Assembly (NCBI RefSeq): GCF_003860405.1
Contig: NZ_CP034170.1
Location: 2,542,001-2,606,000, forward strand
DNA: 64,000 nucleotides
Source: Nakamurella antarctica
GTDB lineage: Bacteria > Actinomycetota > Actinomycetes > Mycobacteriales > Nakamurellaceae
Direction of reading: 5' to 3'
Positions 23,371 to 60,280 of the stretch are shown one piece after another (the first letter of the stretch is position 1; each line of letters opens with the position of its first letter). The notes under the pieces are model-generated. The model had not been told where the DNA came from, made no database searches, and worked only from the letters and a program-made list of their open reading frames with translations. Made by a program: the position numbers and the translations under genes.

Positions 23371-23491
23371 CCATCCCGCTCTCCCCGGGTCTTCGCGTGC
23401 GCCATCCCGCCCTCCCCGGTGCTTCGTGCGCGCCATCCCACCCTCCCCGGTGCTTCGCGTGCGCCATCCCGCCCTCCCCGGTGCTTCGTGC
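23371..23491. repeat. 31-bp intergenic tandem repeat, about four copies
   Basis: Units starting CCATCCC at 23371, 23402, 23433 and 23464 are spaced exactly 31 bases and differ at a few positions. The alternation CGCGTGCG/CGTGCGCG shows two subtypes. The array fills most of the 290-base space between tsaD and CIRCE. Direct adjacency without spacers excludes CRISPR. Confidence 0.9.
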
Positions 23492-23592
23492 GATCCAGTT
23501 ATGTTGGCGCGACCCCAATAGCGATCGCGCGAACCCAAACCGATCGCACGAAGCGATATTCCCCGGCCAGAACCGAGCGAAGCCACCAACAA

Positions 23593-57948: not shown

Positions 57949-58317
57949 TTACAGCACCTCCGGTGCCAGTGAAATGATCTTCATGTACTTCTTGTCGCGC
58001 AGCTCGCGGCCGACCGGCCCGAAGATGCGAGTGCCGCGGGGATCGCCATCAGCCTTGATCAGGACAGCGGCGTTCTCGTCGAACTTGATGTAGGAGCCGT
58101 CTTGACGACGCCTCTCCTTGACGGTGCGAACGATGACGGCTTTGACGACGTCACCCTTCTTGACCCCGGCGCCCGGGATGGCATCCTTGACAGTTGCGAC
58201 GATGATGTCGCCAATGCCTGCGTACCGACGGCCGGAGCCACCGAGTACACGGATGCAGAGGATCTCCTTGGCGCCGGTGTTATCGGCCACCCGGAGTCGC
58301 GATTCCTGCTGAATCAC
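57949..58317 (-). CDS. rplN: 50S ribosomal protein L14
   Basis: This 122-residue protein contains [58 protein letters not shown] and [23 protein letters not shown]. The GTG start has AAGAAAGCGG upstream. In other actinobacteria rpsQ precedes it closely; here a nuclease-like gene and two terminators intervene, so it probably starts a new transcript. Confidence 0.97.
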
Positions 58318-58371
58318 TGCATACCGCTTTCTTATCGACTGCTTGCTGGTTCTGTCGCCGACACACTAAAA

Positions 58372-58416
58372 GGCAAGAGGAAGTTCAGGCGTCATACCTG
58401 ACTTTTCACTCTTGCC
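58372..58416 (-). promoter_or_regulatory. Long stem-loop in rplN leader
   Basis: GGCAAGAG (58372-58379) pairs with CTCTTGCC (58409-58416); inside it AAGT/ACTT and CAGG/CCTG pair around a CGTCATA loop. It lies 55 bases upstream of rplN and could mediate feedback by a ribosomal protein. Confidence 0.55.
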
Positions 58417-58569
58417 CTGCTCGCCGCACTGCGGCGGGCTTTATGCTTCGGTTATTGACAGTTCCCTGGCGGGATTTCCGACCTCGCCAGGCCAGATACG
58501 AGACGCGGCTCTCGCGAGCCATGTCCCAATGGGCCAGACTACGGCATGAGGCGGGTCTGCGCTAATCAA

Positions 58570-58611
58570 GCGGCTGCTGTCTTGCGGCTGCTGTCTTGCC
58601 GCTGCTGTCTT
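58570..58611. repeat. 14-bp intergenic tandem repeat, three copies
   Basis: GCGGCTGCTGTCTT is present twice exactly and a third time with one change, directly beside the left palindrome of the nuclease insertion. Confidence 0.95.
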
Positions 58612-58640
58612 GCCGCGGCGCGCTCCCTGTATTTACCGCC

Positions 58641-58694
58641 CAGTGAAGGTTTTCCACGCAGTATCACGTGATTCTGCGTGAGAAACCTGCACTC
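58641..58694. repeat. Palindrome PAL-L beside the DUF559 gene
   Basis: Arms 58641-58661 and 58674-58694 match at 17 of 21 positions, with a TATCACGTGATT centre that is itself palindromic (ATCACGTGAT). The core reads GGTTTTCCACGCAG and CTGCGTGAGAAACC. It ends 6 bases after the nuclease gene stop. A related palindrome lies on the other side of the gene. Confidence 0.85.
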
Positions 58695-58700
58695 GAGAGG

Positions 58701-59630
58701 TCAGTGCGCCGGAATAGCACGGCCCTGCAGCTGGCTCAGAGTCTGCCGGATCGTCCGGACCACCCACGCGGGATCATTGACGATTTGGCGCCACGTGAAG
58801 CGGAGCACCGTCCAGCCCACCGCGGTGAACTCGGCGTCTCGGAGACGATCGGACTCGAACGCTGCCCGCGTTCCATGACTCTCGAAACCGTCGATCTCGA
58901 TCAGCAGCGGGACATCTTCGAATCTGAGGTCGGGAATCCGGTACGCCTTGCCCACGCGTATTTTGCTGTTGGCCACCCACCCTCCGATGCCAGCGGCGCG
59001 AAGATCTGCGTGAAACCTCCGTTCGGCAGCGGACCAGGGATGAGTCGCGCACTGGGCGACCGCCTCCCTGGCAGCGGCCCATCCCCTGCTTCCGCGGCCG
59101 AGATCCAAGGTGCGCTCCAGAACCGGCGCCCTGAGCCTGCTCAAACGCGCCAACGTATCGAGCACGTCTGCGTTGCCCACCGCGCTCAGATCCACGGCTG
59201 TTCGATGCTGCGACGTCAACTGAAGTCCGTCATGAAAGCGCGTGTCGGCGGTAGGCACACTGCGCCGTCGCACGATTAGCCCGGATCGACCAGGTTTGCC
59301 TTGGCTGGGCGGGATCCACACCTCTACCGACGTTGGAGCCGAAGTGGTTACGCCCCACCACCAGGCCGCGGCATCCATGGCGATGACGGCGCGCTCCCCC
59401 GCCCACAACCAGGTAGCCCGAACACGCGTTCGGCCGTGGTCACGTGCGGCGTCTGAGTCGGCCAGGTACACGCCCGGATGCAGCCGGCGCCAGCTGCCAC
59501 GAGTCACCCATTGTTCGTACCGCCTATCTGCGAGGCCGGTGGCTCGCGCCTGCGCCCTGGTAATCAGCCCCTCTTGGAGTTCGATGGTTTTATCGAGGCC
59601 GAATGTCTGTGCCAGGTCGATGAGGTTCAT
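58701..59630 (-). CDS. AbiEi-type / DUF559 nuclease-like protein inserted in ribosomal operon
   Basis: The 309-residue protein has an N-terminal AbiEi-antitoxin-like winged-helix region (LITRAQARATGLADRRYEQWVTRGSWRRLHPGVYL, about 22-56) and a C-terminal DUF559 domain of the Vsr/PD-(D/E)xK nuclease superfamily, with D234 in RIPDLRFEDV, E245 and D247 in LIEIDGFESHG, and H252. The metal-binding D...ExD pattern is intact, so nuclease activity is possible. Actinobacteria often carry many such proteins of unknown role. It sits between rpsQ and rplN and is bracketed by two related palindromes. Confidence 0.8.
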   Translation of the reverse strand: MNLIDLAQTFGLDKTIELQEGLITRAQARATGLADRRYEQWVTRGSWRRLHPGVYLADSDAARDHGRTRVRATWLWAGERAVIAMDAAAWWWGVTTSAPTSVEVWIPPSQGKPGRSGLIVRRRSVPTADTRFHDGLQLTSQHRTAVDLSAVGNADVLDTLARLSRLRAPVLERTLDLGRGSRGWAAAREAVAQCATHPWSAAERRFHADLRAAGIGGWVANSKIRVGKAYRIPDLRFEDVPLLIEIDGFESHGTRAAFESDRLRDAEFTAVGWTVLRFTWRQIVNDPAWVVRTIRQTLSQLQGRAIPAH

Positions 59631-59720
59631 CGTCTCAGTGGACTGGGTTTGCTAGGGCGACACCGTTATGCCCGGGCGATTGTGGACAGCGGAGCGCTTG
59701 TGGACAGACCCCAACTTTGG

Positions 59721-59778
59721 CCGAGTGAATGTTTTCCACGCGGGAATGGGCATTTTTGCGTGGCATACCTGCACTCGG
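59721..59778. repeat. Palindrome PAL-R beside the DUF559 gene
   Basis: Arms 59721-59741 and 59758-59778 match at 17 of 21 positions around a 16-base centre. The core GTTTTCCACGC and the closing ACCTGCACTCG are shared with PAL-L, in the same orientation. It lies about 90 bases upstream of the nuclease start. Confidence 0.85.
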
Positions 59779-59888
59779 CGAGCATTTCCGGCTTGGTCGT
59801 CGCAGTGGTCCCCATCGCGGGATGGTCTGTGTGGCGCCCACCAGCGCAGGTTTCTTCAGCTGCCACGGGTCACGCGATGAATCTTCCG

Positions 59889-59922
59889 TGGTTCTGGACG
59901 AACGCATCACCGTCCAGAACCA
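59889..59922. repeat. Perfect 12-bp inverted repeat
   Basis: TGGTTCTGGACG and CGTCCAGAACCA flank 10 bases. It may be an operator or terminator upstream of the nuclease gene; no U-run follows on either strand. Confidence 0.7.
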
Positions 59923-60201
59923 TCTGGACACCAGCGGCACGATCACCACCATCTGAATGAGGCCACCGCTTCGCAGGACGGAACCCTAGTTCAACACTGA
60001 GCGCCGTCTCTGGATCCCAAATAAGTCAATCGAACGGGTCCACCGGAAAGAGCGCGGTCTGATCAATGTGGCATTCTGCCGAGACCACGGCCCCGGACCG
60101 GTCCGGCCGCCCACGTCAGAAAGCACTTGGACCCGGCGAAGCGCTGACAGCACTTCTAGGCCGCGCGAGAACCAGGACATTCCCAGTCGAGGCCTGGACT
60201 T

Positions 60202-60270
60202 GGCCCACCGTAGGTGGGCCCTTCCCGAAAACCACAGCAGCCCCGGAGCCAATCGGCGCCGGGGCTGCTG
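60202..60270 (-). terminator. Tandem hairpins terminating after rpsQ
   Basis: A perfect 12-bp stem CAGCAGCCCCGG/CCGGGGCTGCTG (60235-60270) starts 11 bases after the rpsQ stop and is followed in the transcript by GUGGUUUUCGG. A second perfect stem GGCCCACC-GTA-GGTGGGCC (60202-60220) follows. Together they make a strong intrinsic terminator. Confidence 0.75.
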
Positions 60271-60280
60271 GGTACTAGGA

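Follow-up and report, generated by a model that had tools for sequence, protein, structure and literature searches.

The window, by which we mean the whole stretch of Nakamurella antarctica DNA that was analysed (64 kb), contains a putative nuclease gene bracketed by the ribosomal protein genes rplN and rpsQ, all three lying on the minus strand. The gene itself stands between two imperfect palindromes. The features are as follows:

57949..58317, minus strand: rplN (ribosomal protein L14), flanking gene, identified by Pfam L14
58638..58695, unstranded: downstream imperfect palindrome, copy 1 of the cognate repeat, 6 bases past the stop codon
58701..59630, minus strand: AbiEi-DUF559 nuclease gene, an open reading frame of 309 aa
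58722..59039, minus strand: Vsr/EDxHD-like nuclease domain, residues 198-303, from structure matches and conserved residues
58890-58892, minus strand: codon of D247, nuclease domain
58896-58898, minus strand: codon of E245, nuclease domain
58929-58931, minus strand: codon of D234, nuclease domain
59022-59024, minus strand: codon of E203, nuclease domain
59046..59612, minus strand: AbiEi-like module, residues 7-195, from VIA-align and PADLOC
59720..59777, unstranded: upstream imperfect palindrome, copy 2 of the cognate repeat, starting 90 bases before the start codon
60281..60586, minus strand: rpsQ (ribosomal protein S17), flanking gene, identified by Pfam S17

Judged from domain models and a predicted structure, the product of the window gene is a fusion protein in which a module resembling the AbiEi antitoxin is followed by a nuclease of the Vsr/EDxHD type. 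DUF559 (PF04480, 32.2 bits against a gathering score of 20.6) and AbiEi_1 exceed the Pfam cut-offs, while the matches to AbiEi_4 and MTES_1575 stay below theirs. Among PADLOC models the AbiEi model fits with an E value of 3.8e-19 and there are also weak Hhe matches. In the AlphaFold2 model (mean pLDDT 91.7) residues 7-195 superpose on the AbiEi antitoxin 6y8q (VIA-align, Z 13.9, rmsd 4.3, 180 aligned residues), and the protein resembles the Rv2827c structure 1zel with Z 9.3. For residues 198-303 the matches are the putative endonuclease 3hrl (Z 13.7) and the catalytic domain of the homing endonuclease I-Bth0305I, 3r3p (Z 13.1); over a slightly longer range the nuclease region matches Vsr, 1cw0 (Z 11.1). 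The acidic set of this nuclease consists of E203, D234, E245 and D247, and all four residues are present; an intact D...ExD pattern had been pointed out in an earlier reading based on the sequence only. Regarding an AbiEii toxin gene, the neighbours are rplN and rpsQ and the other ORFs of the spacer are short or antisense, which rests on the ORF list without a toxin model. A scan of the genome contigs with the window protein as single query found no relative.

The two palindromes of the window are 58-nt direct repeats that are 74% identical and have GTTTTCCACGC and ACCTGCACTC in common in the same orientation. The sequence-only reading had described two related palindromes bracketing the gene, and both their positions and the shared stretches are confirmed. 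Its count of 17 matching positions in arms of 21 is slightly altered because the arms were bounded differently: 22 of 26 arm positions match in the best hairpin of the downstream palindrome and 22 of 29 in that of the upstream one. The downstream copy has the top score of three palindromes found in a scan of the 64 kb, and the arm pattern, with up to 3 mismatches allowed, matches only the two flanking palindromes in the window (0.00 expected). By reading, the GTAG tetranucleotide that marks one palindrome end in REP/RAYT systems is absent from these two palindromes. A search of the organism's own 3.38-Mb genome for further copies, which had been proposed earlier, returns no others than the two flanking ones at E ≤10, i.e. 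no dispersal. The window unit is thus a low-copy example that has just its two flanking copies. Near the downstream palindrome, at 58570-58619, a 14-bp unit similar to GCGGCTGCTGTCTT is repeated in tandem three times.

The gene occupies the spacer between rplN and rpsQ (58318-60280), and it had been asked whether empty sites without gene and palindromes exist there. Within the genus the distance between rplN and rpsQ matches does vary widely, the extremes being about 128 bp and 17 kb (loci L286-L315), but a clean empty allele of the window gene could not be established. In N. silvestris a homologue with 52% identity lies beside rplN, and rpsQ is on another contig.

Does the pairing of gene and palindrome extend beyond this locus? 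The homologue set was drawn from Nakamurella genomes (not all located places are included) and from named genomes, which contributed 79 loci and, as judged from their titles, belong almost without exception to Actinomycetota. From 145 distinct genes, 108 were full-length with enough flanking sequence and 37 were dropped. The pairing score is the best ungapped repeat between the 350 bp upstream and the 410 bp downstream, without a palindrome requirement, and the threshold was set at 20 or more. A matching repeat is found on both sides of 75 of the 108 homologues; it is usually palindromic and differs from gene to gene. In contrast, when upstream and downstream flanks were swapped between genes the score reached at least 20 in 3 of 600 cases, and among neighbouring ORFs in 1 of 43. 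The pairs come both from Nakamurella genomes (38 of 51 loci) and from the others (37 of 57). It is important to note that the 108 homologues include orthologues and are not fully independent. In an additional mycobacterial set of 30 loci, which are the best matches among 48 gene-bearing genomes, repeat pairs occur at 15. Our results thus support the earlier idea of a unit made of a gene and its cognate palindrome. The association is strong, the window case is the tip of a general pattern, and the data demonstrate that most members of a large actinobacterial family of AbiEi plus Vsr/EDxHD-type nucleases are paired with their own palindrome of about 58 bp.

A hairpin with at least 14 matched positions is formed by 129 of 148 repeat copies (from 74 loci scoring at least 22), with median values of 58 bp for the length, 26 bp for the arm and 3 bp for the spacer. 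The remaining copies are weakly self-complementary; at L034, L109, L030 and L085, for example, the paired repeats are poorly self-complementary. Relative to the gene, the start of the downstream copy roughly coincides with the stop codon (median −3) and the upstream copy ends at a median of 100 bp before the start codon. As to relative orientation, 32 of the 75 pairs are direct, 20 inverted and 23 ambiguous. L043 and L072 may represent a variant layout, since their flanking repeats are long, inverted with respect to each other and only weakly self-complementary. A CTGAG-like motif was considered as a shared central loop and rejected; it is at the centre of 6 of 70 loci, makes up 9.3% of centres versus 1.2% of off-centre stretches and is present in at least one copy of 12 of the 15 mycobacterial pairs (no control).

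The repeat pair scores below 20 in 33 of the 108 homologues. Close relatives that carry the gene without palindromes had been named as the observation that would refute the unit, and this is partly met. Three of the 33 were inspected: one has the downstream palindrome only (L131), one the upstream palindrome only (L143), and the N. silvestris homologue beside rplN (L016) has arrays of related palindromes beyond the scored flanks on both sides. Pairing is also reflected in the nuclease domain. None of the 90 paired genes has lost D234, E245 or D247, and 88 of them also have E203, whereas the four-residue core including E203 is broken in 7 of 48 unpaired genes as compared to 2 of 90 paired ones (p 0.009).

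The palindrome type follows the protein. Palindromes of two genes are similar (score of at least 18) in 13 of 13 pairs with protein identity of at least 80%. The share falls to 35% at 60-80% identity (26 pairs), to 4% at 50-60% (28 pairs), and to 0-1% in each identity band below 50%. Recognition could not be assigned to the HTH alone: palindrome similarity goes most closely with identity of the middle domain, but the domains do not vary independently of each other.

Palindromes are not confined to gene flanks. We searched for them in 17 Nakamurella genomes and 20 genomes of the named loci, and many palindrome families have solo copies, with dispersal in Nakamurella, Micromonospora, Pseudonocardiales and Mycobacterium. 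In Nakamurella all 150 matches listed, of 326, fall in genomes carrying the cognate gene; beyond the 150 listed there are three matches in two genomes that supplied no palindrome (one in G004, E 0.019; two in G015, best E 7.8e-4). Matches in the named genomes cross between related species, e.g. L087-type copies occur in G023, where the status of the cognate gene is unchecked. Among 118 mycobacterial genomes the gene is found in 48 and palindromes in 49: both in 40, the gene only in 8, the palindrome only in 9 and neither in 61 (Fisher p 6e-15). Without the 15 genomes that were the source of the palindromes the numbers are 25, 8, 9 and 61 (p 5e-10). Neither value is corrected for descent, and since gene and palindrome can be co-inherited both overstate independence; moreover, four candidate stretches were scored per mycobacterial genome, which makes absences and copy numbers uncertain. 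The Nakamurella matches listed and the mycobacterial association nevertheless bear out the expectation that copies accompany DUF559-type cognate genes. RAYT as the driver of the palindromes is rejected: PF01797, the RAYT family, is absent from 29 of the 31 genomes searched and present in only 2, with E. coli as positive control.

The genome of the window's host has three units with three different palindromes, namely the window gene, G000:C1:3183251 and G000:C1:2509049. A copy belonging to the last of them lies within the window:

23484..23553, unstranded: solo copy of the G000:C1:2509049 palindrome family, beside tsaD, not part of the window unit

This solo copy is separated from the end of tsaD by about 40 bp and lies towards groES. 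Positions 23380-23490 hold tandem units of about 30 bp that begin with GTGCTTCGTGCG or GTGCTTCGCGTG and resemble the end of the adjoining solo palindrome.

Solo copies are illustrated by N. silvestris, where the 20 copies of the L170 type that were compared match at 67-71 of the 72 query positions and have unrelated flanks. Eleven of the 20 lie between two open frames of at least 200 bp that both end within 30 bp, as compared to 62 of 4000 and 27 of 2151 background positions. This placement bears on two rival explanations. The palindromes might be only autoregulatory operators, as for AbiEi antitoxins, with the extra copies being other regulated sites. Two AbiEi monomers bind a pair of 23-bp inverted repeats with 3 bp between them, in the pairs bound by Rv2827c the separation is 13 bp, and in both cases the repeats are in the protein's own promoter (PMC7319586); the palindrome geometry of our family is similar. 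However, neither a second copy at the stop codon nor solos at convergent 3' ends are promoter sites, and an operator-binding role does not account for D234, E245 and D247 being kept in every paired gene. We regard operators alone as unlikely, though still admissible.

It is likewise rather unlikely that the palindromes are only terminator hairpins between convergent genes which turned repetitive, the nuclease gene being adjacent by chance or for insulation. The convergent-end placement of the N. silvestris solos fits such a role, and so does the start of downstream copies close to the stop codon. Yet the upstream copy ends well before the start codon, the gene's own palindrome is matched on both sides, and types follow the protein. 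Furthermore, G–T and A–C mismatches are equally frequent (142 versus 136), which means that there is no coding-strand RNA bias. On the same counts a coding-strand RNA hairpin is rejected as the main selected feature, and the RNA-hairpin option of the sequence-only reading accordingly fits less well. Insertion of solo palindromes into existing terminator stems was considered too and is not supported, as the complementarity of the N. silvestris flanks is equalled in 58 of 1000 permutations and so lacks significance.

In Micromonospora, palindrome types at orthologous sites differ between species. In this genus and its near kin the gene holds one chromosomal neighbourhood: for 13 loci, the sequence on at least one side of the gene is shared with L119. 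Five sites of one Micromonospora genome (G036) were compared with four other genomes. Across species the L214 site has types A, D, A-prime and B, the L220 site types A, B and A-prime, and the L215 site types B and C, all three being clearly different. At the other two, L221 and L216 (the latter is the upstream copy belonging to the gene itself), the type is A or its near variant A-prime. In M. sonchi (G039) the L216 copy is missing and the downstream copy is kept; L221 is not alignable there. In M. lutea (G026) four of five sites are A-prime, the same as the flanks of its own gene, one of the four being that flank. Ten of 12 loci in G036, one gene flank included, are type A, but these loci were found with a type-A query and the count is therefore favoured. 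Differing types at orthologous sites fit overwriting in place or repeated insertion at one site, and the two cannot be distinguished. Many solo palindromes at L214-L225 have C-rich tracts on the left, e.g. CCCACCCC, and G-rich tracts on the right, e.g. GGGGTGGG, with tract lengths varying between species.

The stable neighbourhood speaks against a transposon-like single-gene element in which the palindromes are the ends and the gene itself is moved, and the transposition-end option of the sequence-only reading fits less well for this reason. The compact layout of palindrome, promoter, gene and palindrome would suit such an element, as would the several members per Nakamurella genome. On the other hand, the three units of the window's genome carry different palindromes and the alignment of 20 solo flanks gave no conspicuous target duplication (without a systematic search), which leaves little room for this explanation. 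A defence nuclease acting against foreign DNA with such palindromes, the host copies being tolerated or a decoy, can draw on the AbiEi and weak Hhe matches among PADLOC models and on the kept nuclease residues, but it does not predict host dispersal or gene-specific palindromes and seems highly improbable.

Besides the palindromes, the region upstream of the gene contains two further elements, found by reading the sequence:

59681..59689, minus strand: DnaA-box-like CTGTCCACA, nearer the start codon
59699..59707, minus strand: DnaA-box-like CTGTCCACA, 18 bp further upstream

The high-affinity DnaA box of Streptomyces and Mycobacterium is given as TTGTCCACA (PMC4285127). On that basis both copies at the window gene are one base off the high-affinity box and the family consensus GTTRTCCACAG includes it. 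T.TCCACA occurs within 130 bp upstream of 63 of the 108 homologues and the core TCCACA upstream of 77, with at least two copies in 38; 28 of 33 same-strand core spacings are 18-22 bp. T.TCCACA was found in 0 of 108 downstream windows and in 0 of 107 and 0 of 106 distant windows (core in 1, 4 and 2, respectively), upstream of 0 of 107 other ORFs (core in 1), and in 0 of 30 homologues of the mycobacterial set. The boxes are not commoner with pairing (41 of 75 paired versus 22 of 33 unpaired genes). That DnaA binds to these boxes is only inferred from their sequence.

We consider it reasonably probable, though far from secure, that gene and palindromes constitute a REP/RAYT-like unit whose enzyme is unrelated to RAYT: the palindrome would be bound by an AbiEi-like dimer, and its conversion and spread would be driven by the nuclease. 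The pairing of gene and cognate palindrome, the dispersed copies, the type differences between orthologous sites and the retained nuclease residues are all observed; binding, cutting and spread are inferred. Two protomers would bind the two arms of about 25 bp, as AbiEi does on paired 23-bp repeats. With a dimer bound to a 58-bp palindrome, the two nuclease domains would come to lie at the centre, where they might nick or cut, perhaps on an extruded or single-stranded palindrome at the replication fork. The nick or cut would provoke copying from another palindrome copy, and such copying would keep copies alike, overwrite older types and sometimes seed new intergenic sites. Cutting or nicking with repair from another copy would explain why copies are alike, why types switch and why copies are dispersed. 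The upstream copy may double as an autoregulatory operator. By analogy, the family geometry is that of AbiEi operators (PMC7319586) and of the target of I-Bth0305I, which dimerises on nearly 60 bp (PMC3943268).

The earlier comparison with RAYT/REP systems, in layout and not in family, holds. As in REP/RAYT (TnpAREP, REPtron), palindromes flank the gene and are dispersed extragenically in the same genome; this applies to many members, the window unit being flanked and not dispersed. RAYT genes are vertically kept, and so is the present family as seen in Micromonospora. The enzyme differs, being AbiEi plus a Vsr-type nuclease and not HUH Y1, and so do the palindromes, with a median of 58 bp versus 20-40 bp for REP (PMC3733652). 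With the EDxHD homing endonuclease I-Bth0305I the family shares the fold of the catalytic domain, the acidic residues and, by inference, a dimer target of similar size. Unlike there, the DNA-binding part is AbiEi-like, and the putative target is on both sides of the gene and elsewhere and, as far as the layout shows, is not interrupted by the gene. The AbiE type IV toxin-antitoxin system (AbiEi, Rv2827c) has the two-domain AbiEi fold and paired inverted-repeat DNA of similar size, whereas our family has a fused nuclease, a second palindrome at the stop codon and dispersed copies, and the window gene is located between ribosomal genes. VsrA of Caulobacter has a DUF559/Vsr-type nuclease domain too, but it is proposed to act in mismatch repair linked to a methyltransferase, and palindromes are not described in the portion of the paper available (PMC12907096).

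Several observations do not agree easily with the REP/RAYT-like unit. If the enzyme does cut the flanks of its own gene, damage to the host would be expected unless the activity is restrained, which is unexplained, and no insertion boundary with target duplication has been established. In addition to the unpaired third of the homologues (33 of 108), no gene was detected in 9 of the 118 mycobacterial genomes although palindromes are there, and 8 of 118 show the reverse. The association is established and the mechanism is not, as neither binding nor cutting has been demonstrated. A wider proposal can be made only tentatively, as a serious possibility that falls somewhat short of probable: Actinomycetota would have a REP-like class of dispersed palindromes which, in place of an HUH transposase, a restriction-fold nuclease fused to an AbiEi-type binder spreads and rewrites by cutting and gene conversion, timed to replication in many members via paired DnaA boxes in the promoter, and its specificity would diversify fast, dragging the genomic copies along.

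To our knowledge, HUH-type RAYTs are so far the only enzymes known to be dedicated to dispersed palindromes in bacteria. No literature linking DUF559 or AbiEi-nuclease genes with dispersed palindromes was found, as far as titles and the openings of abstracts tell, subscription journals being mostly outside this scope. The layout is that of the REPtron, from which the present units differ in enzyme, in palindrome geometry and probably in chemistry, and the pairing of nuclease and palindrome looks like a new kind of partnership between a gene and a repeat. A second, unrelated enzyme with the layout of a gene plus palindromes would be a convergent solution and, if this is true, would suggest a function for a large and little-studied family of nucleases. 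Since the cognate palindrome stands on either side of many of these genes, genome sequences may directly reveal what many of the proteins recognise, a code that is testable with purified protein.
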